Shown here: positions 2,271-56,736 of the stretch, in pieces
Numbering within the stretch: the first letter of the stretch is position 1
Layout: every line of letters starts with the position of its first letter
Source: Morchella semilibera
Taxonomy: Eukaryota; Ascomycota; Pezizomycetes; Pezizales; Morchellaceae
Direction: 5' to 3'
Length of the DNA: 64,000 nucleotides
Assembly (NCBI GenBank): GCA_009192285.1
Contig: CM018607.1
Span: forward strand, 1,487,736-1,551,735
Notes under the pieces: model-generated
Seen by the model: the letters and a program-made list of their open reading frames with translations, nothing else
Database searches by the model: none
What the model was told of the DNA's origin: nothing
Made by a program: the position numbers and the translations under genes

Positions 2271-4002
2271 TTAATCCAATCCACCTGACAAGTTAATGCA
2301 GACAGTCTTAGTCTGGGTGTAGTTGGCGAGGGCGGCCTTTCCAAGCTCACGGCCAATACCCGACTCCTTGTACCCACCGAAAGGCAGGGCGTGGTGAAGG
2401 GCGTTGTAGGTATTGATCCAAACAGTTCCGGCCTTGAGGCGGTTGGAGACCTCAATGGCGGTGGCCAAGTTCGTGGTGTGGACAGCAGAGGCCAGACCGT
2501 AGTTGGTGTTGTTTCCAATCCTGATAGCGTCGTCCAGAGTCTTGAACTTAGCAATGGAAGCAACAGGACCAAAGATCTCCTCCTGCATAATCTTCATGTC
2601 CTCAGTGACGTTTGAGAAGATGGTAGGCTGGATGAAGTAACCGTCGGTACCGTGGCGGCCACCACCGCACTCGATCTTAGCGCCCTCCTGCTTTCCGTGC
2701 TCGATGTAGCCCATGACACGGTCGAATTGGAGCTGCGAGACCTGGGGGCCCTGGAAGGTTTCTGGATGGAAGGGGTCGCCGACGACATTCTTAGAGATTC
2801 GAGCCTTGAAGGCCTCAATGAACTTATCGTAAATGCCCTCCTGAACGTAGATACGGGAACCGGCACAGCAGACCTGGCCGTGGTTGAAGAAGATACCGAA
2901 ATTGACCCAGCTAATGGCGTCATCAATATCGGCATCGTCAAAGACAATGTTGGGTGACTTCCCACCAAGCTCGAGAGTGACCTTCTTGAGGTTGGAGTTG
3001 GCGGCGGCCTTCATGATCATGCGGCCGACGGGAGTGGAACCGGTGAAGGCGACCTTGTCGATGTCCATGTGCGAGGAGATGGCGGCACCGGCAACTCTTC
3101 CGATACCGGAGATGACGTTGACAACTCCGGGGGGGAATCCGGCCTCCTTGATAAGGTTGGCAGCAACAAGGGCGGAAAGAGGAGTCTGCTCGGCGGTCTT
3201 GATGATGACGACGTTACCAGTGGCAATTGCAGGTCCAATCTTCCATGACCACATGAGGATGGGGAAGTTCCATCTAGAAATCCTCCGTCAGAAATCACTC
3301 TTCTCAAACCTCATATCAAACGGGGTAGGAAGGAAGAAGGGCATACGGAATGATCTGTCCGCAAACACCGACGGGCTCCTGCTTGGTGTAGTTGAACTTT
3401 CTATGGGCGGTGTCAATGACCTTTCCGTGGACCTTGTCGGCCCAACCACCATAGTATCTGAAGACGTTGGCGGCAGCCTGGACGTCACCCTCAGCGTGGG
3501 AAAGGGCCTTTCCGTTGTCGAGGGACTCGACGGAGGCAAGAAGGGTCTTGTGCTTCTCGAAGAGGTCCGCAAGCCTGTTCAAACATCTTCCACGCTCCTG
3601 GGGGTCGAGTTTGGCCCACTCGCCCTCGAAGGCGGCACGGGCAGCCTTAACGGCAATGTCGACATCCTGTTTGATTGATTTGTTAGGAATGATGGGTGGT
3701 AATAGGAGAGTTTGCTTCTGGTTACCTTGTCGGATGCCTCATATACGGAGGTGATAACCTTCTCGTTGGTGGGGTTGATGACTTCGAAAGTGCCTCCATC
3801 AACAGACTTGACCCACTCGTTGTTGATGAACCTATCCAGCGCCCAGTCAGTCCCAATTCCATCATTAGGTGCCAATGATATATAGGAAGAGGAAGAGGAA
3901 GAGGAGGGGGAGGGGAAGGGGAAGGGGAAGGGAAGCTTACAATCCAATAGGCTGCTCGTATTTGACGCCGTTGGGCAACTCAATAGTCTGTGTAAGGCTC
4001 AT
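2271..4002 (-). CDS. aldA: NAD(P)+-dependent aldehyde dehydrogenase
   Basis: Four exons (3941-4002, 3726-3831, 3347-3666, 2271-3273) join in frame to 1491 bases, giving 496 residues, the normal size of a cytosolic fungal class-1/2 aldehyde dehydrogenase. It oxidises aldehydes such as acetaldehyde to carboxylic acids. Catalytic residues are present: the general-base glutamate in VTLELGGKSPN (about residue 264), the nucleophile in GQVCCAGSR (Cys298, the first of the pair), the GSTPVG cofactor loop (about 241-246) and the IIPWNFP motif (about 161-167), which is rebuilt only by splicing exons 3 and 4. Donors GTAAGC, GTAACC and GTATGC and acceptors ending in AG are visible. Intron 1 contains a pyrimidine-rich simple repeat. 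Lysine is absent from the C-terminal end, so no SKL-type peroxisomal signal. The symbol follows the Aspergillus ethanol-utilisation enzyme; the exact substrate is inferred. Confidence 0.95.
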
Positions 4003-11762: not shown

Positions 11763-14700
11763 TCATGTAGATACCTCCCCTAAATCTTCCATCATATCCC
11801 AACCTGAGCTTATTTCGTATCGCTGGTGTCCTCCACCATGCCCTTCCTCTCCCCTTTCAACCCATTCTTCACCCCTTGCATCTCTCCAAATACTTTGGAT
11901 GTATCTTTGTAAAGTTCTCAACCCTCTTAAATAGCCTCTATCAATGCCAGCACGATCCTTTGGTGGACAGGTCGCGAGTGGTGATAAAGGATCTTCCGCT
12001 GTGACGCAATTTGCAAAATCCACGATTTTAAGGTCAATTTGTCGGTCGTGGTCCATACCATCGTACAGCATGAGCAAGCTACTCGCGTAAAATCTATACC
12101 CAGGCAAGCATTTGATCATGACTTCCAGAGCATGTAGCTTTTCTAGAATTGTCGGAATATGTCTCAGGACGGATTGTTCGGCTTTCCCATCGTGCAAGAA
12201 CCGGGTAAGTGCGCTTTGAAATTCACGCCCAGCCTTGAGATCTCGCCCAAAGTACTTATCCTCGAAGGTGTAAGTACTGCTCTTGGCATTCCAGACTTGC
12301 ATCCCACAAAGCCTCACTCCAAGGTCGCGAGATGTAGTGAGGGCACATTTATTGGCTTGAGACTGACGTTTCTTTTCGTTCGCTTCGACCCCATACTGTC
12401 GGGTCCCCATCTTAAGATCAAGAACACATGGCCGTCTCATACCTGCTGTGAGGTCTTCGAGGAGAAGGAAGTGCTCAACGCGTTCTGTCGGCTGCTCTGT
12501 CGGCTGCTCTACCGGGGGTGGTGGCGGCGGCGAAGGTGGCGGCGGTGGCGATTGGCTATCTGGTGTAGGATCTAACGATATTGCAGGTGGGGGGAGGGAC
12601 GTTGTTGGCAGTAACCCATCTGGAGGGACTTGGACCTCGGTAGTTGGTGAAGGTCTTCGTGACATGCATTTCTCAGCCCATGATTTTTTCCCTGGAACAA
12701 TATCATCCTCATCCATCTTAAAAACCTCGTCTTCCCGATCACCCCCATAACCATCGTCCTCAACTCCAAAGGTATGTGGACTCAGAGACACCCTTTTCCG
12801 TGTCCGTCTGCGCATACTCCCGCTCGATTGCCTTCTAGCCAACTTAGTCTTCGGCCCACTAAAAGTAGGAATATCTGGGGATGCAGTTGCCGGTCGTTCC
12901 AGCAAGTTGCCATGCTCAATAGCCCCGCTCTTCGAAATTTCTTTAGGCTTGGCGCTAGAGGAGTGCTTTCTGTCAACATCATCTCGAAGAAATTTGATAC
13001 GTCGATCCTCGGGTGTATTCCCGTAAGAATGAGAAAGGTCGGTGCTACTTCTTCTGAAGCCTCTGCTACAGTTTGAAGATTCGCCTGCGGCACATTTTTC
13101 ATCATGCTGATGTCGATGGTGATGATTAATGTGGTGGGATCGAGAACGCGATCGGGAATGTGGGCGGTGGTGATGTACTGGCGGTGGTGCAAACACCTCT
13201 CTTAATACTTGTTCCTGTAATTTGCGATTCACAGAGGTGGCTCCCCAACTAGGGCTTTTAGGAGTGATTTTTGGACTAGCATCGCTTCCTGTAACTGTCC
13301 CATTGATCTCAGTCCTACCAGTTTCATTGCCGATGCTACCAAGCTCTACTCCATTCCCAATACCAGAATCTTTCTCGCTATTTACAGATGATTTGGAAGA
13401 ATGGGAGGAAGCACTGGTAGAAAGTCTGAACAAGTTCTCAGGAATGATATGCCTGTTATTCTCAAAAACTACTTGTGGTAAGGGAAATAACGGATTTCCT
13501 TGCCCACTTTCTGTTGCTGCCGCGAAGTTCGGTTGTTTAGAATCAGCAGGTGTAGCCTTTGCGTTAGTAGTGCCACTAGAAACGGGAGTAAGGGTGGTCG
13601 CTTCGGCCCCAGTGGAGGTCTCGCCTGAAGTATTCTCAATTTCCTTCTTCTTTTTCTTCTTAGGTGCTTTCCGGAAAGTCACATTCAACACCCCAATATA
13701 TCTTGGATTCAGAGATAAATCAGCTCATGTGCAACCGGGGAATTTCAAATGAATCGGGTAGAAATGGTAGCTTACTTTGGCAAAAAGCCCAACAACTCTG
13801 GGTGTCTTTTCTCTACAGCCTCGTAGAACTCGTTCTCTTTGTTACTTAAACTCTTGCAAACCGCCCTGCGGGAGAACCGAAACAGTGCAGTATGACCCCC
13901 AACCTGGTGATTGTAAGGCTTGAGTTCCACAGCACCGAGCGGTACCTGGGGGTTGTCTGAGATAAAGTGTTGGAATGTGACTTATTCGTAGACTGGCCAT
14001 GGGGACGATCGAGTTTTCGGGCGACAGGAGTGGCAGTCGGGGTGGTGTCAATTTCGGACCCATCTTGACCATTTTCGTTGCCCGACGAATCTTCATTGCT
14101 ATCTGAAAGTTCAGAAAAACCGGATGCTGCTGACGAATAACCTTCATTATTAGAGTGGTAGCTGCTGTAGTCATCGTCGGTATTTACACGATTCCGTCGC
14201 TCTGCATGATAGTGGAATTCGTCATCTCCGGACTGGATAGATAAATCAAATTCCGGCCCTGTTTTACACGGAGGTGGGAGTATATCCTCTCGTGTAACAT
14301 CGGTAATAGACGGATCTTTCCGCATCGGTTGGCTAGGCAGGCCCACTACCGAGGCTGATCTATTTTGGATAGTTGCAGGATCTGGAATGACAGACGGCGT
14401 TGGATGTGGAAAGTAAAGCGCCGAGGAGATCTCGTCTTTATCGGATTCCTCATCCTCATCATCTTCATCCTCCACCTGATCAACTCTATCATTTCCTGTT
14501 TGGTTTCTGGAAACATCAACAGATAGTTCGTGACAGTCTGACTGTCCCTCAGCTAAGAGCGAGGCTGAAAACTCTGAAGGGCTAACGACAATGTTTGTTG
14601 GGTTATGAATATTGGAAATAGCCCTGTAGTTTGGTTGAGATGAAGATTCAAGCTCTGGTTTATTATCAACTGAAGCCACTGAGGTAAAATCTGCTGGGGA

Positions 14701-18800: not shown

Positions 18801-19844
18801 CTCATGTGATTTGAGTAATGTATGTGCTCATCCATGTACGCTCATACATGTCGTACGTACAATCGCGAAGGCTCACTTGCATTGCCATCGGTCACGGGCC
18901 GTGGGCATCGGAGGTTTCACTTCATACGCGACTTAACGGGGAATAGTGGCCAAAGGTTTTTTTTGCACGCCCATACAATTCGAGGTGTTTTCTTTTTACG
19001 GGCGCATCGTAGCTCATCCATCTGCGCTAATGTGCCTACATTCGCTATGAAACTCTGTCTTTGAGATCTCTGCCATCAATTGCGATCGTAGCACATATAG
19101 TACATATAGTACATACGTGCCTCGGTTTAGCTACTTTGGTCGTGCCTAGAATGAGTGATCATTCATGATTGAATCAACACGGGCGACATTCTTTTCTCGA
19201 ATCACAGAAGGACAAGGGCGTGTGCTCTTTGAAATATGCATCTAATAGAGTGCAAAGAATGGTGCACGTGCTCTTGCACATGTATGTACTTCAGCTAGAA
19301 ATAATCGCCAGCTTACATATGTTACTGTGGAAGATTATGATTGGTACATATATTCTGCGACTACTTAGCTGCTGATCTCTAGCCAATACCTCGTTGAAAA
19401 TTTTCAAGCAAGCTGGAGATGGGTATATTATGGCGGACCATTATCTCAACTACAAAGCTCAAATGATCGCTGTCTCTACCTGTAACAGTCGTCGTGGCAG
19501 AATATATGCGACTGAACTCGTATGATTTTCTCGTTTGATGCTAGTCTTGTCTGCCATGTGTTTTAGATGTTTAGAGATATGGAGATAAAAGAACCAATTG
19601 GTCTCATATATAATTCCACATGGGAAAATGAGTGTAAGGTACTCGAAATATTATAAAAAAAAACATAAATAAAATAAAAGGTAGGAAAATAAAAAACTTG
19701 GATTGTATGGGTCATGCCTCATCACTCGCACTTGGATCTCACGATCAGGACTAACCAGGTTTTTTAATTCATTACATAAGACTAACCAGATACTTCATAC
19801 AAGGACTAGCCAGGCCTAAACTGCCGCGAAAAAAAAAACCCCAC
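15877..19844. other. KCS1 promoter and long intergenic region
   Basis: Apart from the G-rich tract near KCS1, I see no coding region. A second G/C homopolymer lies near 16373-16383. 18820-18860 and 19095-19125 carry TACATGT / ATAGTACATA-type short repeats. The last 200 bases are the 3' side of the decarboxylase gene. Confidence 0.45.
16037..16102 (+). repeat. Poly(G) and GGGGAA repeat upstream of KCS1
   Basis: A run of 19 G (16037-16055) is followed by AAGGGG units and another G run (to about 16102). On the coding strand of KCS1 this is a C/T-rich tract about 160 to 230 bases before the ATG, a place where fungal promoters often carry pyrimidine tracts. G-quadruplex formation is possible on the plus strand. 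Confidence 0.7.
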
Positions 19845-22800
19845 TCACGGGAACTCTTGATCAATCTTGGTCTTCCACGCCTCAAGGCCTGCATTCACCT
19901 CTTTGATTGCAAGAGGGTCGGAGTTAACCCAATCTTTGTCGACATAGACATTATCAGTGAGGGTCATTTTTGCCGAAATTAGCTCTGAATCAACCACTGA
20001 TAGCCCCGGACCATTAGCATCGGTGCCGTGCTTATCTTTATAGATAGACACATTGAAGCTCCTCCCCTGGCGGAAGAAGAAACTGGATTCGTTCAACTCC
20101 GCAGCAGTGGGGATCTGGTCGAACGGCTGCATCGAAACCTCGGACACTTCCTTCATATATAAGATCGCTCCACTCTCGAGCTCCTCCTTTAAATCTGTGA
20201 GTGGAGGGTAAAAGGTGACCTTTTCGGCCGAGAGCTGGGTATTGGGCGCACGGAGAAGCATATGATCGATATGAGTCTCCTCGGGTGTACCATAGACATA
20301 GAAAGGCATGTAGTTCTCGGGGTAACTGTGGTCGCGATACTTCGCGGAAAGGTCGCGCTGCTTCAAAATACGTACTTTAGTGACTTGGACGTTCTTGATA
20401 AGGCTTGTTCTGAAACAAAAAGCGTTAGCAATATTCATGAAGAAATTGGGAAAATAATGTAGTGGGATGTATACCCATCACTAAAGTTTATGTCAGCCTT
20501 GAAGGTTCCTGCTGCCAAAATCTCTGGGAGTTTAACCAGCGGAGTTCTCAAAACAAATGGGGTTTTTGGATTATATTTTCTTGCTTCAACATATGTGTTC
20601 ATTGCATCATCTGGGATCTCGGCCTCAAGAATAAGCTGTGTGCGGTTGTCTGCCTCATAAAACAAGGGCCTGTAGGCAAGAAACAGCCTTGTAGTGCCTT
20701 GCATAGTAAAGCTATGGTTGGTGGCATCGATTGAAACACGCAGCCGGCAAGCCTAATACAGGAGAGGAACGACAAAATCAGAGCCAAACTTTTATCGGGT
20801 CATTCAAGGGATATAGACATACCTCGACTTCTTCTAAGGCAACTTTTTCAAAAATTGATGCTAGCTTAGCAACAAAGTTTCTCTCTGTCGGGAATGGTGA
20901 CATTGTGACATTCCTGAGAACGAATAGGTCTGTTTCTCCCTTCAGCCCGAGTCGTTTCTTGAAGTTGTCCGCACAGGCGCCGTATTCGTGCTGTAAGAAC
21001 TCCGTAGATGTAAGGAAAAAAGGAACTTCGGCAGGAAGTTTGTCAGGCGATGTGACTGATAGTCTATTAACAATGCGCCGGTTGAGGTTATTTGCTTCCT
21101 CCACGTCATCATTCAAGGTCCCGTCCTCAAGGCGGAAATTGCATGCAAATGCATTGACGATCAGATCTGATCCCAGAGATCCAAGCAGCTCCATGGCTCT
21201 ATGATCTTGGGATACTTCCCAGTTGGTCTTATTGAGAATACAGTCCCGGATTTCTTGCTTTTCCTTTTTGACAGAATCAGATGCAGCTGTTCCTCCGGCC
21301 TCCTCTGATGGGAGCATATTTAAAGGGACGACAATGAATTTCTCGTTTTCCATCGTGGCCCAATGTGCAGATAGCTTTAAACGGATGAAATAATGTTAGA
21401 TAAAGTATCAGCGGGGATTTTAGCTCAAGGCTTATGGGTTTGCATATATATACATACCCGGCTGCAAGTAAAAACAGTCTCACTAAGTAATCCACCGTAT
21501 CCATGTTCGTTCAAGCCGATGACCTTATGTGATAGGAAGGTTGCACCTGCAGCAGCACCAGGTTTACTGTTTTTTTTTTACATGAATATCAGTTCCATAA
21601 AGTCCATTTAGTTTAAATAAAGAATAAATACCAACTAACCTCCCCTCAACGCCGTAGATACCAATACTCTCAGTAGAAGGATCCCTAGTGATATATGGTG
21701 TTGTCCAGGTCACTAAGTACTTCATTCTGTTGTCACGGTAGCATAATGCACCGGCTGGGTATGGGATATATCCAGTCTTATGTGGGTCGATGGTTATTGA
21801 ATCCGCTTCGTGCATATGAAGAAGCTGGTCTGTTGTGTTTTTTCGCAGAGGAACTATGGCCACATAATCACCCGGAGAGTCATGGAACATGTTTTTGTGT
21901 TTTGGCGGAAGTGTAGATGCGAAGTAACCCCCCCAAGCAGCATCAGCATGAACGATGAAAGACATGCCGAGCTTTTGGTATTTTTTGCGGAGATTAAGAA
22001 CCTCGACGAGTGGATCAACGGCTCCCTCCTCTGTTGTGCCAATAATCGCCACCACCGCAAAAACACCTTGCTTTCTTTCAAGACGTTCTTTTAGTAGTTC
22101 GTCGAGTTTATGCGAGTCAAGGCGTGCATCCTTATCAACAGGAACGTTGATCACGTTTTTAGAACCAATACCCGTGATAGCTAGTGTGGTTACAATACCT
22201 GTTAGTCTTTTCATTCATTGAAAGTGGCTTGATATAAGTATGTAGAGTACATATAATATACGGAACTCACCAGCAGCTTTTGGCCACGAGTAGTGCTTAG
22301 TGGCAGATACCATATATTGGATTGGATAACTGATTTCAAATTCTTTTTCGAGGGTATCCTTTCCAATTGTTTGAATGCTGTACTTTCCGAACGAATCTTG
22401 TAAAAACTTTGACGAGATACCGTACTCCTGTTGTAGTCTATCAGGGATATCTAGAATTGTTGAAACATTGAGATTGAGTAATTCCCAGGTGGAAAGCTGG
22501 CTGAATAACTTTGGGTCACCGCCTTCGCAAGTCTCGACTTTGAAAGTTTGCGCGATAAATGAAAGTTCTTTTTCCATGGCTTTTTTGAGAGAAAGGGGAT
22601 AGAACTTGATATTTCGAGCTGGAGGAGTACGTAGTTCAGTATACATTTTATGTGTATATTCCGAGCTCATGAATGGATTTTTATCTTACCAACCCTATAT
22701 CATATAATCTCATATAATTAGCATTAGTTTAATTATATCTGTATAGACGAATAGGGATGGTGTGAGAGCTCACCACATAGACTCAAGATTAGCTACAGTA

Positions 22801-23406
22801 CCGTCGCAGGTTATATGCCCCCATGCTATTGGTAGGTTTTCCGGGTTTTCAGCACCCTTTGGTTTAAGATTGTATCTAAGCATTGAACAGAGCTGTTCAC
22901 CGACCATCATCTCTAGCAAAGTTGTGATCGGGCTGGCCTCAAGAGCAACATTATTGGGATTGAATAACATTGTCATCAAGTACCCTAGAATGGCAGGCAT
23001 ACTAGTGTCGCATGTCATATGTGCGCTGTAGCGGGCCGACCAGAAGGGAATCGAGTGCTTGTTTAGAAGATGAGACAGCCTCTCAGCATAGTTTTCAAGC
23101 TTTGCTACTTGACCTAAGTATGTCGGCGAGTCTTTCATAGCAGCAGTAATGAATTTCTGGAAGAAGATCGAAACAGTTAATATTGCTTATAGGGGTGGGA
23201 GAGGGTGGGGGAGTAGGCACCCCATCAGTAGGATAGTACGATGTTCTAGCACGTCTCTGTTGATCAATGACCGAATTTATGCATGATTTGAACCAGTCAA
23301 AGTTCTCAGCCTGAGGGCCGAGAAACCATGCTCCAACAGCCTGATGTTGAGCATTGTCTTCATCAGAGGAGGCTTTTGGATAGACACTTTCGAGGACAAA
23401 GGACAT
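19845..23406 (-). CDS. Group II PLP-dependent decarboxylase (tyrosine/glutamate decarboxylase-like), large form
   Basis: Nine exons join in frame to 2985 bases (994 residues): 23221-23406, 22774-23156, 22690-22694, 22271-22618, 21640-22198, 21458-21566, 20823-21374, 20475-20752, 19845-20409. The PLP fold is clear: CDGTVANLESMW (substrate/cofactor entry), SATKHYSWPKAAG, IGTTEEGAVDP, HADAAWGG (PLP-binding Asp, about residue 390) and DPHKTGYIPYPAG, whose lysine (about residue 448) should bind PLP. These motifs resemble bacterial tyrosine decarboxylase and related fungal proteins. After about residue 700 there is a further domain of about 300 residues (TRLFLAYRPLF... to FRQGRSFNVS) that I do not recognise. 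It likely decarboxylates an aromatic or acidic amino acid in the cytosol; the substrate is inferred. No transporter or pathway partner is adjacent. Confidence 0.9.
22690..22694 (-). other. Five-nucleotide microexon of the PLP decarboxylase
   Basis: The bases GGTTG sit between acceptor ATATAG and donor GTAAGA. Joining ATGTG + GGTTG + CTCGAAAT reads ESMW-V-ARNIKFYPL, the expected continuous conserved segment, while skipping it breaks the frame. The flanking introns (22695-22773, 79 bases; 22619-22689, 71 bases) are of normal size and each has a plausible branch site. Confidence 0.85.
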
Positions 23407-24377
23407 CTTAGGTACGTAGCTTTGATTGAGTATGTCGTGATTTTGGTTTTTCGTTAAATTTATAAAAGGTAGGAATGGTGGACTTTATATGTCAAGGCCC
23501 CTTGATACTACTGGTAGTAATCAATGTCTACAATATGTATCCCTCGCTCCCCGGGCCCCACCATTGATGCATGTGGTGTACATACGTAATTTCTCCTGGT
23601 TGGCTGCCGCAAGTCAAGCGAAATGAACCGAAAGGGGTAAGGAAAATCGTGTGGTGAGGGGCTCTTATAATTACATCCAAAACGTAGACATTTTTAACAT
23701 CCATTAACAGCTGTTGACAATCATGTAGCAGATGTAGAAGATCTGCTCTGAATCGAGACGTATAGACAGTATCCGCTGCGTCTACCGCGCCAGGTAATGC
23801 ATCGCAAATGGATCATGGGATGCACCCTTCGTACTACTTGATTATGAATCGGCAAATCAATCCTAAATGCATCTCAAATGCATCGGCATATGCGTCCCAC
23901 TCCTGTTGGACGTCCTCCCAATCAGTTGATAATAGCTATCATTTAGCGGTCTATAACTATTCGGTAACTTTCCCGGCACCTTTCCTAATACCTTTCCTGA
24001 TACATTTCCTAGGGGGTACGTATAGATAAACAGGTTACAAGATGTAATATTCTGACAGAATTGTGCTCCAATCCATTGTCAACCTGTATCAGGTGCATGT
24101 AGTGACCTTAAATTAGAAAGAAGTATTTACTTCCAATATTTCTTTTGCTAAAATTTCTAAATTTTGAATTTGTCTGCTTCTGGTGCATGCGCATATATAT
24201 AAGTATACATAAGGTTGAAGTACCACTTGTAGTACTGCATAGAAATTAAGGCAGCCTGGAAACTCTCTCGCTATGATAAGATGTCCGGGAGCTTATTGGC
24301 TTGGTATTTAAACTATATGTTTCAAAGAAATGGGACCGGCTAGTAGATGCATACAGACTACACATACATACTCGAAA

Positions 24378-24446
24378 AATTCGCTAGCGTCGTTTGCACC
24401 AAAAAGTACTTTTTTTGGTGTGCCAAAGCAACAACGCTAGCGAATT
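24378..24446. repeat. 69-base palindromic hairpin element
   Basis: AATTCGCTAGCG at the left matches its reverse complement CGCTAGCGAATT at the right, and the inner GCACCAAAAAGTAC / TTTTTTTGGTGTGC continues the palindrome. It is probably a tiny miniature inverted-repeat element or a hairpin. Confidence 0.75.
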
Positions 24447-24463
24447 AATCAAATACATGCCCC

Positions 24464-24674
24464 GTTCGAAAAGTCCTGGCGCCCCCGGGTCAAAAGTACG
24501 AGGGTGTTTCTTCTATTTTCTAATTCTCCCATTACTGTGACTATATATAACAGAGAGCTACAATATCTTCATTACGGCCATACCTAACAATTTTTGAGTA
24601 TGCACAGGAGAGATGGTGGGTTAGGACCCATAAGCTGCAGACACAATATAGTAGGGTGCCAGGACTTTTCAAAC
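24464..24674. mobile_element. MITE-like element with 17-base inverted repeats
   Basis: GTTCGAAAAGTCCTGGC (24464-24480) is repeated inverted at 24658-24674 with one mismatch; similarity continues a few bases outwards (GCCCC / AGGGC). The 211-base length and lack of coding content suit a non-autonomous DNA element. Confidence 0.65.
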
Positions 24675-24773
24675 AGGGCTGTAGTGCACGGGCTATGGCC
24701 TAGATCTACAAGGCTTGGATCACGTAGCGTGCATGGACTATGTATGTACAGCGGTGGGTAAATATACTCGTAC

Positions 24774-24964: not shown

Positions 24965-25152
24965 CTATCCCCTGGGCTGGTGAGACTCGCGGAATCCAGG
25001 ACTTCCTGTTCGGGCTGTGGCAAAGTCACTGAGCCCGTCACTTTCTGTGGGTGTTTGCCAGAGATTGTTGGCGTTTGTTAGCAAAAAGTGGGACAATTAT
25101 TACTGAAATAGGAAGTCCTGGATTCTGCAAGTTTCAACAGACCAGGGGATAG
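24965..25152. mobile_element. MITE-like element with 43-base inverted repeats
   Basis: Arms at 24965-25007 and 25110-25152 start CTATCCCCTGG and end GAATCCAGGACTTCCT, with about seven mismatches between them. The total length is 188 bases with no coding capacity. Confidence 0.75.
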
Positions 25153-25430
25153 TTGTCACACAGGAGCAAATATTTTCAGATCTTTGGCTCCACTTTGTTC
25201 AGAACTACGTTACGCCGGCAAATTCAGCCTGGGTAAAGATTCTTGATGCTTCCCTTAATCCAGTTTCGGTTTGAGGGCGTATCAGCTGGTGATATAAGTG
25301 ACGAGTAGATAAATACATGTACCCCACATATTACATGTACATGTACATATGATCTACTGATCTACCCTACATGGCCCGCTGCATGCAGTTAGAGATGGTC
25401 TAACATATCGAACCAGTATACTCATCCCTC

Positions 25431-25532
25431 CATGACGCTTCCGAACACGACCAATATTGCATACCATACAAATAGGGAGACTTGGCACTTTTTTGTGTGT
25501 ATGCAATAACAGTCGTGTTCGGAAACGTCATG
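25431..25532. mobile_element. MITE-like element, ATTGCATACCATAC family, copy 2
   Basis: Arms CATGACGCTTCCGAACACG (from 25431) and its inverted copy ending GTCATG at 25532 flank an ATTGCATACCATAC core and its inverted GTATGCAAT. The core is shared with copy 1, and a right-half relative lies at 59709-59757. Confidence 0.7.
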
Positions 25533-25920
25533 GAATTAGTAGTATATGATACCACATGAGTGCGGGGTCTGCATTAATTGTTCTAGCTAGATTTAGACCT
25601 AACAAGAGCTTGAGCATCTATATGTCCTAATAGCCATATATATTTTCTACATGTACTTACTATAACTTTGTAATTTGTTAAAGACGAATGAAATAAAGTA
25701 CCGCTCATAGCGCGGGTATATAGCTAGGTACTTATATATATGTAGCTGTATTTGCGTCGATATATAGCGGTTATATAGAACGGAGACATCAGTTCTGGTT
25801 GGTCTACTATATGCATCTCCAAATTCAAACAGCTCAGGAGCGCCTCCAAACTTGCTGAGATATATAGAGATGTTCTACACGAATAAACTTACATACATAC
25901 ATGTCTAACCTACTCATATG

Positions 25921-26164
25921 CATGTACCCCGGGGGTCCTTAAAGTGATGCAACGAGCTCAATATTCTGGTGTCGCGACCACCATCAAAGCTGGACTCAGT
26001 CAATTTTTTCCATTAGTATTTCCATTTACTATTATTATATAGCTCCGCCTGATGCAATTCGACATGTAAAAATTACTTCCCAACTTTTGGGCATGGTGGC
26101 CAGTAGCTGCGAAATTAGTGGTTTCGTCGCCGTTGCATCGCTTTGAGGACCCCTGGGGTACATG
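25921..26164. mobile_element. MITE-like element with 34-base inverted repeats
   Basis: Both ends read inwards CATGTACCCC(G/A)GGGGTCCT and continue AAAG(T/C)GATGCAACG; arms are 25921-25954 and 26131-26164. The arms begin with the CATGTAC palindrome that is common in this window. Confidence 0.75.
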
Positions 26165-26790
26165 TAAGTAGGTATGTATATGTAGCTACGTAGATCTATA
26201 GAGTAGCTACTCTAGTGTGACAGTGATAATCCAGCCATTGACCCCGCATTTCTAGGCACCCAATTGTTACAGAAGCAACCTAATCAATGCATAGTGCTGC
26301 GCATTATATAGTTATAGTTTCGGGTCTTAACAACACTGATAGTGCTGCTGATTGGCCGGGGTTCTAGAAGACATTGGAGTATTTCCCTAGCTGTGGAATT
26401 TTAGATTCCAGAATCTGAATCAGGACAGAGGGGGAGGGGTCGGTTCAAGTTTCTAAACTTCAGAAACCTGGAAACCAGTAATATGATTAGTTCGTGAGCA
26501 TGCATGAGCCCTTGCCAGAAAATCTAGGTTCTACGGGAAGTCGTCCATTAAATCTGATCCTTTGTTCAATAACCAGCTGGAATATCAGATCCATAAGATT
26601 TCCAATAATGGGTAGGCGAGAGGAGCAAAAAAGCCTCATCTAATATTCCGGGCCGGGGATTATACATATTTATGGCGACATTTCCCATGGTATGCACCAG
26701 GACCAGAGTAGCACCAGGGGGTCTGCATGTAGCTGCACCCATACCCCACAGAAAGACCTAAGGTATATAAATTTTACTAGTTAGTATAGT

Positions 26791-27820: not shown

Positions 27821-29890
27821 ATGCTGTTTCCTCACTTTTTTCTGCGGGTGTACATCAACAGATGGGTTTAACTACAATTTACTAGTGAGCTTTTCAGTCT
27901 ACAACTTTACAGACACCTTTGCCTACACTTTTGCCAATGTGATATTGAACCTTTGCAGACGGCTTTACCTGTAAAATCGTTTGGTAAATTGTCGTAAAAA
28001 GTTGTGCTTTTTCCCGGAAATATGTCTAGGGTTAATCATTATCAAAATAATGGTATAGTGATTATAGACAGTCTCTAAATGTTAGGTTCAGTTCCTGATG
28101 CAGTAGATTTTTGGGTGTCTTTCCTTCCTTCCAGGGCTAGGGTTTTTTTATACTTGGGAAATGTGTATGCATGATTCATATACCGACGATTTTACATGAT
28201 TCATTTACCGGGCTATTAGAGTGTCCCTTGTAAAGTTCTTAGGGGTTGTATGTGGGATTTTCTGCGTTTTTTCTATGCCACAGAACCTTGCAGGCAGAAG
28301 TGCCCTAACGCTGAATAATTTAAGTACACAGAAGCTCCGAGAGCAACGCCGTTGAATCTGGGTGGCGGAGATTACAAAACATCAAGTTCCCCGCCAGCTC
28401 CTATGGCTTTCAACGTTATTGATACCTCAGATTTACCTAATATCCTTATTGTAGCAATTGCTCTACTATCACCGAATGCTTACCTGACGAGCTATATACG
28501 AGAAGCTTAGGTGGGATCCAACTACTTGGGGGTTGGGGCAATTCTCTATGGGGTGTCTTTGCCTCTTGGTGTAGCCCCTACTGTATATCTAGCTAGAACG
28601 TCTTCAAACTCTTCTTTTCAGGGGGTATATTTCAACAGCCCCAATACGAGATTCCGGCCTTCCTGTAAGGTTAGGGTTGGAATCTTGGAATACTAGAAAA
28701 ACCCATACCGAGTTACTGAGGTTGGTTAATAATTAGGCGGATAGAGACTGGCCCTGTTCCTTGGGAAGTCGGGGTTAGTGGGGTTTAAACTCCATGATCA
28801 GGGGTTCAAGGAAACAACCGGGTTGCAATTAGGTATATGCATATTTGGGTACTTAGACAAATGTGGCAATCTGATGTTTATGATAGTGGGATGGCTTCGT
28901 TATATCCGTTCCCTGGGATACCCAGGTTCTTTATCAAAGAACAGGCCAATCAAAAGTTCGGTGATTTGGAGTCTCAATACCATTGTTGAGACCTACCAGC
29001 AAAGCAAGTTCTGGATTTTCAAGACTAAATACTAAGCCCCTAGTAATTTGTTTGATGCAGCGGATAAACCGGGTGCTGGACACCGGCAAGAACCAGCATC
29101 AAAAACCAGCATCAAGAACCAGGGTGGTTTAACCACCGCCTCTTCCGCATGTTCCAAAAGAGGGTACCCGGCCCACCGAGAAAGCAATAGTAACGCATAG
29201 TCAAAAAGTCTCGCCTCGGTATCTCTCTAAACAGGCTTGATTTATCGCACCCAGAGAAAATCTTCTGGACCTTGGATCTCGTACAGTAACCACCGATGCC
29301 CACATTCTTCCACTGTCAAATTCCGTTAAGCCCTCCGGGGGGATGGCTCTGCACACTATTATGACAAAAGCATACGCCCGTTGTTGGTGGAGAAATAAAA
29401 CGCTGGTTGTAAGCTAGGCAAGGAATTCGCCAGTATGCTCATATTGCGGCGTAGGAACACGAATTCAGTACTCAGTTAGGGGTGGAGACATTTTGGGAAA
29501 TATTGGACAAGAGCAGCCATAGTACCGTTGTTTGATTCCCATACATGTTGCTTGGCTCCGCCAAGAGATCCCCGACTTCGCGGAATCAGATTTTGGTTGA
29601 TGCAAAGATTGCTAGTGGTAAAACTAGGTTATTGGGGGAGGCTTGATGCTTGAAGTGTGGATGCCGGAATGGTGTTTGTAACAGATGTAAGGTGGGGGCT
29701 ACATACATGTATAGTCTAATAGTGTTAAGGTGTTGTTAAAATTTATGAACACGTGATCGAGACGCGTAAATTAAAATCAGATAATCAGGCCACACAACAA
29801 TCAGATAAGCTCCCGTCTTCCCGCGCGTACAGTCCCGTCTCCATAGTAACGACGGAATCGATCATTCATCAATCATCATAGTTCCTCATC

Positions 29891-32800
29891 ATGCCACCCA
29901 GACGCCCCCCGCCTCCTTTGTTTCCACCTCTTCCTCTCGATCCTATATCTGACAATCTTCCCTCCGACATAATCTCACGAGACTCATCCTCCTCGGACTC
30001 AGATACCGAGACCATTGCGAAACGGGGCCGTATGTTGAAATACGCAGAGAGCTATTTGCGGGGGGAGCCGCTTTACCTACACTCCGCGGGATTGCGAGGT
30101 CCAGTGGTGAAAAATCCATGGGCAAAGGGGAGGAGACAAGCCAAAAGAAAAGCTAAAGAAATTGAGGAGGAGATTTGGGGGGAGGACTTGAGCAAGAGGT
30201 TAAACCGCGGACAGGAGGATATAGGGAAGGGGATTGAGCTAGCTCCCCCACTGATTGGGGGAAACGCGATGAATATGTGGAGGAGAGGGATAAATACTAC
30301 CTGGGACGGATCGACCCCCTCAACTCCGACCCCATTACGTATAAGGCCACCTGAAGCAACAAATTTACCGGATCGGTCTCATTCTCGATCTCATTCACCG
30401 TTCGATAAAGATTCATTGGAGTATAGAACACCAACCAAAAAGAAGCTCAAAGCTCCCATTGAAGTAGCACCAGTATTCTCCCCGGGAACCTTTTATAAAC
30501 CTAAAGATAAACCTCAACAGATATCGATTGAAGACACCTCCGGGCGGCGGGGGTCCTCGAGCGCAAAAAAATCATCACCACCGTTAGAATCAGATTGTTT
30601 GCCTTCAAAATCTAGTTCTTTGCGGAAGACAAGAGATCCCTTAGAGGTACGAGACCCAACGCCACGACTTAGACCTAGGAAAAATTCCCCTACAGAGATT
30701 ACGCCAGATACACCAACGCAGTCTCGAAACGTAACTACAAGACTCAAGCCTGGACAAAAACCCACCACCGAGCCTATACTAGAAGCACCAGTACAGTCGC
30801 AAGGTTCAGGTTCGAGGCCTAGATCCACTCGCAGCTCAACCAGAGCCTCTGAACTAGAATTAGAGCTGCTCAGGGAATCTCGGTCTGCTTCTAAACAAAT
30901 AAACACACGAGCTAAAACTAAATCGACTGAATCGTCTGAAGAAGCACAACCAAATCCAAAACACAGATACACACGAAATAGCTCCAAATCAATGGAGACA
31001 TTGGAGACTCAGTCGCCAAGGCAAGAGCAAGAGCAAGTTTTAGATACAATAGAGGTGATGCCTCCACCTAAGGTACAGGATATAGATATGAAAAAGAAAA
31101 GGCCTAAGATTGATTTTGAAGCGGTATCACCGTTCGGGGTAGCGCCTGAACGGCCAAAAGCGAGGAGGAGGCAAAAAGTTGGGGGTCCTGGGAAGAAAGG
31201 AAAAAGGGGGGGTCCTCAAACGGAGGAGCAGGAAGTTCCAGGGTACATGGATATAAGGAAGTCCGCAGAGCTAAAGGTTTTTCGACCAGATGAAGATGCA
31301 AATGCTATCACTTATGTACCGGGGCCTGAAAATGGACCGGAAATGGTTGAGATCATGAACAAAGAAATAAACCCAGGGCTGGTGGATACGGGAGTTGCAG
31401 CTATTACAGAACCAAACCATCCTTGCGGGAATGTAGAGGCCACAAGTGAAGAGTCTTCCGTTGTTTTGGCTGTATCGGAGCCGGGACCGGAACAAGTCAC
31501 AGGAGCAGAAGCATCCCCCTCAGGCAGAGACTCCATAAAAGAAGCAGTCTTAGAATCTTGGGTTAATCGTCATGTAGCTGCTTCTCAAAAGTTTACTGCG
31601 GATCATAATAGAATCTCCATTGCGAACCTTCTATCGCCGGCGGAGGAAAGTCCAGTTGCGCGCAGGTATGTAGGAATTTGTGATAACAGATTTCACGATA
31701 CTGATTTGTGTAGGAATGTACACAGGCGACTCGAGAACTTTGTCCCTGACACCCCAATTAATGGGGGTGAAGTCGCGATGCCACGTTATGGCCCTATTCA
31801 TTTAAGGCCGCTTGGGGCCTCCCCCGACATCCCCGTGCTGCTTCCTCCAATTTCACAAGCTGAAAAGGCTAAATCACCAATCACATCCCATGCCCCCACG
31901 ATTGATGTACCTCGGTCCCCTGATCAATTGTCGCGATCTGCGCAAAGGGATATCCACCAAAGGTCTTCAACAAAGTTCGATGCTACCAACCTTATATCAG
32001 AGACAGAGCCAGCAAACCAACATGAATCCTGGCAAAATACACAATACGCTGTTACTGCTGCCCAGAAGGGCTTCTTTGAAGCCATTCAAGAGTCACCTGA
32101 CCCGCTAGGACGCTACCCATCAACCATCACACCTAGGAGAGATTTGTTGAGGCCAATTGGCTTTTTCGAGGATGAAAACCAATCCGAAACACCAGTAAAT
32201 GCGGGTCAGTTTGGGAGTAACTACACGCTCGGGGGGAGTAGTCCATTTAAGACCCCTGGAATGGAGAATGCTCAATGGACAGTTGAGCCCGATGAGTCGC
32301 TATTGAAGACTCCTGGGGTCGAAAACTTTCAGTGGACAGCTAAACCACGTGGTGGGGAGGGTAAGGGGGAGACTCTATTGGAGACTCCAAATCTTCGATG
32401 GAATGATGAGCCATACGAAGCAGAGGAGGGGACTGTTCTCAAGACAACAGGCCAATGGACAGCCGAATCGAGGCCAGAAGATAAGGAAGAGTCGCCACCG
32501 GGGACACCACCAAGCCGCCAGTTATCACCATTTAGGCTCTCGTTCGGCAGTGAAGAATCTGAGTCAGCGTTTACTCCATTCCACGCCTTTGCTACACCCG
32601 AATCATCACCAAAAATTAATAGGCGGGAGAGATCTCCGCCTCATGACTTCTCCGCACTTGGTGCTCCTTCAACATCTAAAAAATCAGTCAAATTTGTGCA
32701 AGGCCTCTTCGGGAATGATGAAAATGGTGAAAGAGGGCAAAACGATGATACAATAAGTTTTAACAACGATTTCTCACCTGTGCTTGGGGTGGAACCACAA

Positions 32801-32980
32801 GGTCATGACAGTTTGTTGGAGCAAGTGAGGGATTTTATGGGAGAAGGTGTGTGGGATACAGTGGCAGAGGCGCAGAAGATTGCGGGTATCGGTTCTGAGT
32901 CGACCCCAAATGAGAAGAACGAGAAAAAGGAGTATATGAGTGCTAGAAAAAGGAGGTCGCTATTGAAGAAAAAAATCTAA
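29891..32980 (+). CDS. Long, mostly disordered hypothetical protein
   Basis: This single-exon gene encodes 1029 residues rich in Pro, Ser, Arg and Glu. Residues about 45-85 carry the most conserved-looking stretch, RMLKYAESYLRGEPLYL then SAGLRGPVVKNPW, a pattern I have seen in fungal proteins loosely annotated as protamine P1-like; that label is weak and does not imply DNA packaging. Residues about 783-865 hold four imperfect repeats built on (L/F)(K/E)TPG...QW(T/N)xEP. Several basic patches (RRQKVGGPGKKGKRGG near 423-438; ARKRRSLLKKK at the extreme C-terminus) look like nuclear localisation signals. The ATG sits after a short leader and no better start exists upstream. Function unknown; a nuclear role is my inference. 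Confidence 0.75.
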   Translation: MPPRRPPPPLFPPLPLDPISDNLPSDIISRDSSSSDSDTETIAKRGRMLKYAESYLRGEPLYLHSAGLRGPVVKNPWAKGRRQAKRKAKEIEEEIWGEDLSKRLNRGQEDIGKGIELAPPLIGGNAMNMWRRGINTTWDGSTPSTPTPLRIRPPEATNLPDRSHSRSHSPFDKDSLEYRTPTKKKLKAPIEVAPVFSPGTFYKPKDKPQQISIEDTSGRRGSSSAKKSSPPLESDCLPSKSSSLRKTRDPLEVRDPTPRLRPRKNSPTEITPDTPTQSRNVTTRLKPGQKPTTEPILEAPVQSQGSGSRPRSTRSSTRASELELELLRESRSASKQINTRAKTKSTESSEEAQPNPKHRYTRNSSKSMETLETQSPRQEQEQVLDTIEVMPPPKVQDIDMKKKRPKIDFEAVSPFGVAPERPKARRRQKVGGPGKKGKRGGPQTEEQEVPGYMDIRKSAELKVFRPDEDANAITYVPGPENGPEMVEIMNKEINPGLVDTGVAAITEPNHPCGNVEATSEESSVVLAVSEPGPEQVTGAEASPSGRDSIKEAVLESWVNRHVAASQKFTADHNRISIANLLSPAEESPVARRYVGICDNRFHDTDLCRNVHRRLENFVPDTPINGGEVAMPRYGPIHLRPLGASPDIPVLLPPISQAEKAKSPITSHAPTIDVPRSPDQLSRSAQRDIHQRSSTKFDATNLISETEPANQHESWQNTQYAVTAAQKGFFEAIQESPDPLGRYPSTITPRRDLLRPIGFFEDENQSETPVNAGQFGSNYTLGGSSPFKTPGMENAQWTVEPDESLLKTPGVENFQWTAKPRGGEGKGETLLETPNLRWNDEPYEAEEGTVLKTTGQWTAESRPEDKEESPPGTPPSRQLSPFRLSFGSEESESAFTPFHAFATPESSPKINRRERSPPHDFSALGAPSTSKKSVKFVQGLFGNDENGERGQNDDTISFNNDFSPVLGVEPQGHDSLLEQVRDFMGEGVWDTVAEAQKIAGIGSESTPNEKNEKKEYMSARKRRSLLKKKI

Positions 32981-44780: not shown

Positions 44781-47269
44781 CTACCTCCTCCTCAACACAA
44801 TCTCGTCCGCATCCTCGATATCCTCATCATCACTACTAGGGATGCGCACGGCCGCGCGGTGAAACAGCGCATTACTCGCCTGGCTGTCGGTCTGCGTGAA
44901 CGTGAGGCGTGTCTGGCGCGTCGTTGGCGCCGGCGCGCGGACAGTGCGGCGGGCAGCGGGCGCGGGGGCGGCCCTCTTGGGTGCTGGGGCCTTCTTGGGT
45001 GCGGGGGCCTTCTTGGGTGCTGGTGCGGCTTTGCGCGTACGGCTGAGGAGGGGGTTAGTTTTTGGTTGTTAAAGGGAGGGGGGGGGGGGTTACGTTGATC
45101 TTGGGGGTGGGATGATTTCTTCTTCCTCTTCCTCTTCTTCTTCTTCGTCGTCGTCGTCGTCGTCGAGGATCATGATGTCGCTGTCGTCGTCTTCCTCTTC
45201 CTCGCTGACGACCTTCGCGCGGCCCCTGCCCTTGGCCGGTGCCCTTGCAGCGGGGGCCCTCCTTGTCGTTGTGGCGGCGGCCCTTGACCCGCGCCCGCGT
45301 CCCCTCGTTGCCGCCCCCCTCCTCGCCGGCTGGGGCGGAGGCGCTTCCTCCTCGTCCTCGACGTCCTCATCGTCGCTTCTCTCCGCGCCACGCACCACCG
45401 CCGCGGGCTGATCCTCCCACGGCCCGTCCAGGTCCTCGTCCCACCCGGGGGGCATAGGCTTAATCGGCGCGCGCCTCCGCGGCTTCGCAAGCCCCTTTGC
45501 AAACACCTCCTCGAGGTAGCTCTTCTGCGCGTCCACAACCTCCTGGATCTTGTCCTCGTTGAGCTCGTCGTACTCGCGCAGCTTTGCCAGGCAGCTCCTG
45601 AGCGAGTCGTCGACGAACGTCTCAACGGCGTGCCGGTCGTCCTTGTCGATGAAGCGGCCGATGGCGTCGCTGAGCCCGTTTCCCGGGAGGATCTCGAGCG
45701 TGGAGCCCGACAGGAACTCGGACACTAGGTTCTCGACCCTGACGTTGTCGATGCTGCCGCCGTAGTCCTCGAGCAGCGAGGATGCGTTGAGGGGCGTGGA
45801 GGTGGCGCCCGCCTTGGCGCGCCGTGTGCCCGTGGCCTTGCGCCGGTAGAACTGGACCACGTCCTCCACGTTTGCGACCTTTCCGACGAACCGGTTCGAG
45901 AAGCGTTGCGGGTTCTCGGTCTCGAAGCGGCCGCCGTCGGGCGCAGAGTACTCGACGCGCAGGCGGATGAGCGGGAGGGGCGCGTCCTCGGCGGTGGTGT
46001 TGGGGTCGTCCTGCGCCGAGAGCCATGAGGCCACGGCCTCCCCGATGAGCGTGTCGACGAGGCCGCAGAGGTAGGCGGTGACGGCGGTGCGGTTGGAGTT
46101 TCTGGTCGCGAGGCGCTTGAGGGCGGGTTCGTCTGCGAGGACGAGCTCGCGCATGATGAAGGGACGCACGGTCTTGAGGCGGATGGGCTCGAGGTGAAAG
46201 TCGCGGCCTGTGATGGTGAGGATTCCAACGTGCTTGGTGACGGCCTCACCTTCGCAGAGGGAGGTGGCAATGGACGAGCCTGGCTGGATCACGTGGAAGT
46301 TCATTTCGGGGTTGAGGCGCGGGGTGATGAGGCATTCGTGCTCGTGGCCCCAGACGACGAGGTCGAGGAAGTCTTGGAGGAACTTTTCGGGGAGATAGCC
46401 GGTTTCTGTATGGCCGTGACTGGGGTTTGCATCAGTAGTAGTAGCTGGAATAGAGAGACTATGGGTAATGGACGTACTGGTTCTGATGCACACACATCAA
46501 GTTGAACCACTCGTCCTGCTGCACGTCCGGACGGAGGAACTTGACCTTTCCGTCGCGGAACGTTCTAAAGAGCCGCTCGTCACGAACATTAGAGAGCCCA
46601 TAGAGCGCAAGCTTCGTGGACCCCTTCTGGAGCAACACCGGCGTCACCGTGATATTATCATTCTCGGGGGTGCGTCCAAAGTAATTCACCAATCCCGCCA
46701 CGGACAGCAAATCCAGGGCACACAACCTACCCTCCTAACCCCGACATCAGCGCACCAAACAGCGAGAGAGAGAGGAAGGACAAAAAACACAAACCCCACT
46801 CGGATCATCATGGTTCCCATGGATGGAGAAGACGGGTATGGCGACATTGATATCGGGGTCCTCGTAGTTGACGTGTCCGCCGGCGCTCTGGAACTCCTGG
46901 CTCGTGTCGCTGAGGACCTCGATCTCGCAGGGCTTCTCGCCGTAGCAGGTCTCGCGCAGGATGCGCATCGCGTGGTACATGCTCTTGCGCGAGGGCTTGT
47001 TCTCGTGGAATAGGTCGCCGCTCAGCAGCACCATGTCCACGTCGTGTGTCTTGGCCAGCGACATGACCTCGGCGAAGGTCTGCCAGCTGTCGTCGCTGCG
47101 GATGGGGTCGCGCTCGGCATAGCCCAGGTGCGTGTCTGTGGCGAGGAGGATGCGGAGGGTGTCTGTGGGGTTAGATATGGGGTATTAGTTATGGGGGGGG
47201 TATTAGTTATGGGGGGGGGGAGGGGAGGGGAGGGGAGGGGGAGGGAGGGGACTTACTAGGGCCAGACAT
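44781..47269 (-). CDS. MRE11: Double-strand break repair nuclease MRE11
   Basis: Five exons (47257-47269, 46795-47162, 46478-46734, 45094-46419, 44781-45042) join in frame to 2226 bases, 741 residues. This is the nuclease of the MRE11-RAD50-NBS1/XRS2 complex, which resects broken DNA ends and supports telomeres and meiosis. The calcineurin-like phosphoesterase motifs are present: DTHLG (D14, H16), SGDLFHEN (D54), HGNHDDPSG (N121, H122), CVHQNHHGHTE (spliced) and VVWGHEHE (about 234-241). The MRE11 DNA-binding cap region follows ([10 protein letters not shown], YPxR-like RVEYS). The tail has RGA/RGRG repeats (glycine-arginine-rich motif), an acidic stretch and [12 protein letters not shown] repeats. 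Exon 1 is only 13 bases. Intron 1 holds two TATTAGTTATGGGGGGGG copies and GAGGGG repeats. Donor GTTTGT of intron 2 is weak but gives the exact conserved junction [12 protein letters not shown]. Confidence 0.96.
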
Positions 47270-55202: not shown

Positions 55203-56736
55203 TTAAACCTTGCTGCGTTCCGACTCGGAGTCGTCCGTTACGGGTTTCTGGGCCCCGCCTGATACAGCTACACCCGCGTCGCGCTTTCTCGATACGAATC
55301 TCAACCCACAACCGATCATTGCAATCGCAAAAATAAGACCCACAGTGGCCAATGCGACAAGTGCACCGATAACACCCGCCACAGCCTTTGAAATCCCGCC
55401 AGACTTATTGTCTGCGGCATCAACAGGCTCGTCAGATGTAGTGGGGCAGATTGACTCGTCCGAACCGCACATCGTGCACCATTCTGATACTGAATTGACT
55501 GCAACGTTTGACATGTACTGGTTGAAATCATCCCACGAGATGACGGCTTCGGTGTTTCCAAAAAGTGGGTATTCTTCGATGTCGCTGCTGGTGCCGTTAC
55601 GGAAAAGGAAACGTACATAGAGATCTTTTGTGTCGGTGGGGAAGTTGGTGTTGTCCTCGTAGGAGAGAAGCTCAAACGCCAGTGTTGAGGCATAATCAGG
55701 GAGACCAGTAAAGTTCTCGTAAGCAGTGGACAGGCCTGTGAGTGCGAAGAAAGAAAGAAATGTATCATAAGATCCAACGAGCAAGGAAAGCTTATTATTA
55801 ACGCCTTTGGAGTCAATAGTCGTGGATAGCTGTGTCACAATCTTGTTGGCAAGGGTACGCCCGGAGACAAGAGCAACGGCAGAAGTGCTTGATGCGTTTC
55901 CGTTAAGCCCTAGCTCGTGAGAGTCGGCTAAAGTCCGCAATTGAAAGAGCTGTTCTGAGGATACGACATCTGCGATGGTGCTATTGTGGATTGTGCCAAC
56001 ATTGATATAGTCATAGATGGCATATGCGTTCTTGTAACTCCACTGGCTTGACGAAAAGACACCCTCCAGAATATCCGAAAAGGATTCATAAAAGTCTTTT
56101 GTAGTGGCTTCAAGGTGAGAGTATTGCTCAGAGAGATAAAATCTTTCACTTTCTTCCGTAAACTTAGGGCATCCATCATCGGCCTTGAGCCAAATTGTGG
56201 ATGGATCAGTTACAGAGATTGTATGGATAGTTGTGTACTGATAACCAGCAATAGGTAAAGAGATGACAGAGCCATTCGTGAGAATTTCGGTGGTGACAGC
56301 TTCGGATGAGCCGGTGATGGGAGGGTAAAGACCCTGGAGGAATGCTTGACCGGAAGTTACCAAGAGGTTCTGGTCACCGGTAAGTTGTTAGCAAGGCACT
56401 CCAGCCCGAGTGCGAGTCCATATTGTCTGGCTGACTTACCTGGTCAGGCGCCTCTGCGTAAAGCTGTGCGTTTTTGAATTCTTGGTAACTGATACCCGAT
56501 ATCGCAGTCGACGAATTGCCAATGTACCGCGAACGGTAGAACTCCCCAGAGTCGTATAGCTGGTTCTTACCGAGTGTTGTGAGTTTTGTGGGCGGAAAAA
56601 CTTTTGCGGAACGGTCACCATGACGGGAGAAGATAACGGCACCGTGGACTGTCTCCGTTGCTGCTTGCACACCCAATGGGAGCAGCAAGAGTGACAATGA
56701 AAGAGTGGGCGGGTAAAGCATTTTTGGTAGTTCCAA
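55203..56736 (-). CDS. Histidine acid phosphatase, membrane-anchored
   Basis: Two exons (56440-56736, 55203-56369) join in frame (donor GTAAGT, acceptor GTGACCAG) to 487 residues. The N-terminus is a signal peptide (LSLSLLLLPLGVQA), so the enzyme is secreted; mature start near ATETVHG. The branch-2 histidine phosphatase signature RHGDR is at residues 38-42, with the catalytic His39. Several Asn-X-Ser/Thr glycosylation sites follow. The C-terminus has a Gly/Ala-rich transmembrane helix (about residues 429-455) and a basic tail, so the enzyme should stay on the plasma membrane or in the secretory pathway facing outside. The second catalytic motif, usually HD, is present as GSYDTFLSFF: the His is replaced by Tyr while the Asp remains. 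It probably hydrolyses phosphate monoesters; the natural substrate is unknown. Confidence 0.9.

Follow-up and report, generated by a model that had tools for sequence, protein, structure and literature searches.

A probable five-nucleotide coding microexon in a PLP-decarboxylase gene

Can five bases lying between two short introns be a coding exon of an enzyme gene? The question is raised by a locus on the minus strand of the window (the whole stretch of DNA analysed, 64,000 nt), where a first-pass annotation had picked out the bases GGTTG at 22694-22690 between an ATATAG acceptor and a GTAAGA donor, with neighbouring introns of 70 to 80 bases. Coordinates, bases and splice sites were verified, and the two introns were measured at 79 nt and 71 nt, so that the observation is confirmed as read from the genomic sequence. 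Taking the evidence below together, we put at about 0.93 the probability that GGTTG is truly a coding microexon, the third of nine exons in a probably fungal gene resembling the decarboxylase 6EBN.

The microexon and its reading

The elements around the five bases are these:

22695..22773, minus strand: intron 2, 79 nt, GTGAGC...ATATAG, phase 2
22690..22694, minus strand: exon 3, the 5-nt microexon GGTTG, holding the third base of the W190 codon, the V191 codon and the first base of the A192 codon
22619..22689, minus strand: intron 3, 71 nt, GTAAGA...CTCCAG, phase 1

The candidate is thus a 5-nt internal exon with a canonical acceptor and donor. Exon 2 ends with NLESM plus TG, the microexon reads G GTT G, and exon 4 starts with CT CGA AAT, which together give WVARN. 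The microexon joins the TG of exon 2 to the CT of exon 4; the W190-V191-A192 that results belongs to a near-invariant motif and lines up with homologs free of insertions or deletions. Exons 2, 3 and 4, once spliced, translate as NLESMWVARNIKFYPL, and the predicted mRNA would read TCTATGTG-GGTTG-CTCGAAAT across the three. Intron 2 has two CTAAT branch-point-like sites close to its 3' end. A scan of intron 3 for CTRAY found no exact site, the closest by eye being CTGAA, and intron 1 is likewise without an exact CTRAY.

Gene model and enzyme identity

The accepted gene model runs from 23406 to 19845 on the minus strand, with nine exons, 988 residues and no internal stop. Apart from the microexon, its exons are:

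23221..23406, minus strand: exon 1, with the start codon
22774..23156, minus strand: exon 2, ending in NLESM plus TG
22271..22618, minus strand: exon 4, whose first bases, CT, finish the A192 codon and are followed by RNIKFYPL
21640..22180, minus strand: exon 5, encoding both DPHK, the motif of the PLP lysine, and the counterpart of the catalytic tyrosine
21458..21566, minus strand: exon 6
20823..21374, minus strand: exon 7
20475..20752, minus strand: exon 8
19845..20409, minus strand: exon 9, with the stop codon

The six introns that do not adjoin the microexon measure 64, 90, 73, 83, 70 and 65 nt, and all eight introns of the model end in CAG, TAG or AAG. Intron 4 (22270-22181) contains a decoy AG at 22199 directly after CTAAC, which makes its acceptor easily misannotated as well, while the downstream CTAG at 22181 matches the homologs gaplessly. 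Acceptor 22199, which gave a 994-aa model with a 6-residue insertion relative to 6EBN, was rejected and replaced by 22181 (988 aa). The Pfam, PDB and own-genome protein searches used the 994-aa version, and the splice models were scored with the corrected acceptor.

That the gene encodes a PLP decarboxylase, as had been proposed, is backed by a Pfam Pyridoxal_deC match (65.4 bits, cut-off 27) and by the best PDB match, 6ebn_A, a 'non canonical aromatic amino acid decarboxylase' of 1013 residues (E 9.6e-263; the aligned part of the 994-aa model is 19-974). A match to the Pfam tyrosine-decarboxylase C-terminal family stays below threshold (24 bits, cut-off 27.2; 994-aa model). Across the microexon the local alignment to 6EBN is gapless, the translation given above being paired with NLEAMWAARNLKFYPL. 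In our reading 6EBN is PcncAAAD from Psilocybe cubensis, as both names occur in the available part of PMC13062060, which gives the same protein length. The decarboxylase core is represented by the PLP lysine, whose DPHK aligns with DPHK of 6EBN, and the catalytic-loop tyrosine (Tyr471 of PcncAAAD) is present, with TTPY aligned to SAPY (residues counted by hand). The appended C-terminal domain (PcncAAAD residues 718-1013) is also represented, as the 6EBN alignment extends to residue 970 of 1013. For the calcium site A ligands of PcncAAAD, again counted by hand, Ser632 is kept, Gln629 (a backbone ligand) aligns with Asn, and Glu638 aligns with Lys with an Asp adjacent; the fourth ligand, Asp971, lies outside the aligned part.

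A protein search of the gene's own genome (56.8 Mb) gave 8 matches among the best candidates scored, all of them inside this gene. For the Pfam family of the gene, 10 of 11 matches among the best candidates scored were at other places in the genome. The interval of the intron pair, searched as a repeated element, had itself as its sole match among the best candidates scored.

Conservation in prokaryotic homologs

An alignment-based scan of genome contigs found 232 prokaryotic relatives, of which the best 80, all intronless, were used. A single-protein scan of genome contigs found no relative, unlike the alignment-based scan, and a scan of viral contigs for relatives found none. Each of the 80 relatives used (the best of 232) gave an open frame with the match, and all 80 aligned. 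Over the 20 residues surrounding the microexon, none of these best 80 of 232 shows a gap; all 80 have W at the position of the tryptophan completed by the microexon, and 75/80 have A at the position equivalent to A192. The position between them varies in the same 80 (Y 28, S 25, A 15, V 6, M 5, I 1). In one prokaryotic homolog the segment reads GTIANLESMWVARNLKFYPL.

Comparison of splice models

One- and two-intron GT-AG models were enumerated, intron length being limited to 40-250 nt and splice sites to the stretch from 22860 to 22540. This gave 481 models, 51 of them without stops (10 single-intron, 41 double-intron), and these 51 were scored with an HMM built solely from the 80 prokaryotic sequences. 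The microexon model came out on top at 687.7 bits. The same microexon with donor 22776, by which the tryptophan is lost, reached 673.5 bits, 14 below, and the best single-intron model (22773-22666) reached 658.5 bits, 29 below.

The first-pass annotation had also claimed that only inclusion of the five bases restores both the frame and the conserved segment. Among the models tried, the claim holds for the two jointly; for the frame alone it fails, as 17 single-intron GT/GC-AG joins (40-250 nt) keep the frame free of stops, although 0/17 keep the conserved segment. It is in this joint sense, judged by the homologs and the ranking of splice models, that the five bases appear to be needed. The comparison supports the microexon reading as the right interpretation of the locus.

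Chance expectation

How readily such an exon arises by chance was gauged on dinucleotide shuffles of the 155-nt interval between exons 2 and 4. A 5-nt exon restoring W-x-A exactly (AG/GNNNG/GT, neither intron being shorter than 40 nt) was present in 61 of 20,000 shuffles, and in 2 of 20,000 when YAG and GTRAG sites were also demanded. In a broader control on 400 shuffled intervals, the one- and two-intron models without stops were scored with the prokaryotic-homolog HMM, and none of the 400 attained the observed 343.9 bits (a value for the local fragment). The highest shuffle, at 342.6, fell short of the observed model by no more than 1.3 bits, and in 266/400 shuffles some two-intron model outscored the best single-intron one; because of these two results, the HMM score by itself is not overwhelming. 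Nor is the bare 13-base string YAGGGTTGGTAAG special genome-wide: it occurs at 2 places, the second on contig C23, versus 4 for a reversed control pattern. The case is carried by the exact length together with the splice-site match, and not merely by a better score.

Proposed splicing mechanism

By computation, skipping the microexon leads to a stop after 223 residues, retention of intron 2 to a stop after 190 and retention of intron 3 to a stop after 198. All three premature stops come ahead of exon 5's PLP lysine (position counted by hand), so microexon inclusion should be required for active enzyme. Inclusion is probably constitutive, since five is not a multiple of three and either skipping or retention of a flanking intron would truncate the protein before the catalytic lysine; this expectation derives from the reading frame.

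At 79 and 71 nt, the flanking introns fall within the size range of the gene's other introns (64-90 nt), and, both being short and of the usual size for the gene, they may undergo intron definition, with recognition across the intron. We infer this route for the gene from findings in the available part of PMC8378409, where a C. elegans microexon was no longer PRP-40-dependent once a flanking intron had been made very short, and where yeast introns are described as recognised across the intron. The two introns would then be removed sequentially, presumably one and then the other, because 5 nt would leave too little room for factors to sit on either side at once.

Alternative readings

The single-intron model that scored best turns on one alternative acceptor:

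22666..22667, minus strand: AG of the acceptor TTCATGAG/CTC, which ends an in-frame 108-nt intron (22773-22666) and changes W-V to CSEYTHKMYTELRTPP

If this acceptor were used there would be no microexon, exon 4 would start 47 nt earlier, and CSEYTHKMYTELRTPP would replace W-V. Such an intron keeps the frame without a stop, it is the top single-intron model at 658.5 bits, and gene-finding programs that set a lower limit on exon size might pick it. Yet it drops a tryptophan that is invariant in 80/80 homologs and inserts residues seen in 0/80 (both the best 80 of 232), and scores 29 bits worse than the microexon model. Its acceptor is also a GAG, whereas the gene's eight accepted introns end in CAG, TAG or AAG; on the way from the CTAAT sites to 22666 there are three other AGs, and 108 nt would exceed every other intron of the gene. 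We regard this reading as very unlikely. Another way to do without the microexon is to suppose that the gene has decayed, the whole 155-nt interval being one intron of an enzyme no longer intact, and joining 22774 directly to 22618 does shift the frame, with the stop after 223 residues noted above. Against this, the remaining 988-aa frame is intact over 9 exons, the protein matches 6EBN at 9.6e-263 (994-aa model), and the five missing bases sit between canonical sites, which chance produced in 61/20,000 shuffles; decay seems extremely improbable.

A different kind of alternative accepts the microexon and overlaps with our preferred explanation, from which it differs in regulation alone: skipping, retention or use of acceptor 22666 would be modulated so as to tune the amount of active enzyme. 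The choice among inclusion, skipping (a truncated product) and 22666 (an enzyme that lacks the conserved tryptophan) would then set decarboxylase output. The mis-spliced forms inspected, which are either truncated or lack the conserved W, would suit such a switch, and the available part of PMC11121469 offers a precedent in the glucose-dependent microexon of Trichoderma Xlr2. However, no sequence sign of regulation was seen: Rfam at gathering score gave no match in 19500-24000, and the RNA fold around the microexon is unexceptional (z -1.62, with 16/200 shuffles at least as stable). Skipping of 5 nt, not a multiple of 3, would moreover yield no in-frame isoform. Both the modulation and its effect on output are rated as very unlikely, and constitutive inclusion of a coding microexon stays our preferred reading.

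An exon of this size is easily overlooked by gene-finding software. A wrong database gene model at the locus, as the first-pass annotation expected, is plausible, since plant microexons (PMC8831610) and the Fusarium 1-nt exon (PMC12940212) are documented as misannotated in the available parts of those papers.

Surroundings of the gene

Upstream of the gene lies a MITE-like short inverted repeat at window positions 24372-24456 (arms 24369-24394 and 24430-24455), found at at least 30 places in its own genome at E <= 3e-8; this number counts the copy in the window, and some of the places are on paired contigs. Four more inverted repeats upstream (24965-25152, 25417-25546, 25908-26177 and 24459-24679), whose arms are 26-48 nt long and 81-88% complementary, are possibly MITE-like too. 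The contig pairs C12/C13, C9/C10 and C21/C22 carry matches at nearly identical positions, as if some chromosomes had been assembled as two haplotypes or duplicated. For the window's contig, C5, no such partner was seen for the decarboxylase gene in the own-genome protein search.

Elsewhere in the window, open frames match Mre11 (45093-46496, minus strand; best PDB matches 7zr1 and 4yke, which we take to be Chaetomium structures), inositol polyphosphate kinase (11766-13724, minus strand), aldehyde dehydrogenase (2274-3287, minus strand), histidine phosphatase (55206-56387, minus strand) and ankyrin repeats (61836-62483, plus strand). Taken with the short introns and the 6EBN match, the Mre11 match suggests a fungal source, probably a filamentous ascomycete; a search with two rDNA primer sequences, allowing up to 1 mismatch, gave no hit. 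A stop-to-stop open frame of 1032 aa at 29882-32977 on the plus strand has no Pfam match at E 0.01.

Comparison with known short exons

A limited literature search, little of it on this enzyme, found no published report of this 5-nt exon. Ultra-short fungal exons, down to 1 nt, are already known (PMC12940212), and the comparisons here refer to the available parts of the papers cited. The closest solved homolog of the protein is PcncAAAD (6EBN, PMC13062060), with the same domain order; it is compared as a protein only.

The evidence for a 1-nt exon in Fusarium CYP621A P450 genes comprises 18 SRA reads and orthologs in 20 Fusarium species, and the transcripts listed there were all wrong but one (PMC12940212). 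As at our locus, a fungal ultra-short exon whose length is not a multiple of 3 lies within a conserved motif, with sites AG/G and G/GT, and the clues that led to it were a mismatch in phase and a relative that lacks introns. The Fusarium exon belongs to a P450 and is known from reads and orthologs, whereas the present one has 5 nt, belongs to a PLP decarboxylase and is known from genomic sequence. The P450 genes of Phanerochaete chrysosporium also have microexons, the shortest exon reported being 6 bp (PMC1184071), and resemble our case in being fungal enzyme genes with small introns; there, many genes of the P450 family are concerned, here one case in one gene of another family.

Trichoderma virens Xlr2 has a 20-nt microexon that encodes part of a conserved domain and is absent from the JGI gene model (PMC11121469). 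The present exon, probably also of a filamentous fungus, likewise lies in a conserved stretch, but that of Xlr2 is longer, belongs to a transcription factor, and its inclusion is glucose-regulated in RNA-seq. Codon-sized microexons are reported for Tuber melanosporum NACHT genes (PMC4986451, citing Iotti 2012). In plants, small microexons of 1-15 nt include a rice 5-nt exon validated by RT-PCR (PMC8831610); the present exon shares their size class and coding nature, while theirs are backed by RNA-seq and RT-PCR and form clusters conserved across species.

Set beside these systems, the locus is not a new kind of system. What it adds is an ultra-short exon whose length is not divisible by 3, placed in a conserved motif of an enzyme that is probably fungal and, unlike the two closest fungal cases found, not a P450; it also offers a concrete prediction for gene-model repair and a compact test of how the spliceosome handles two introns 5 nt apart.
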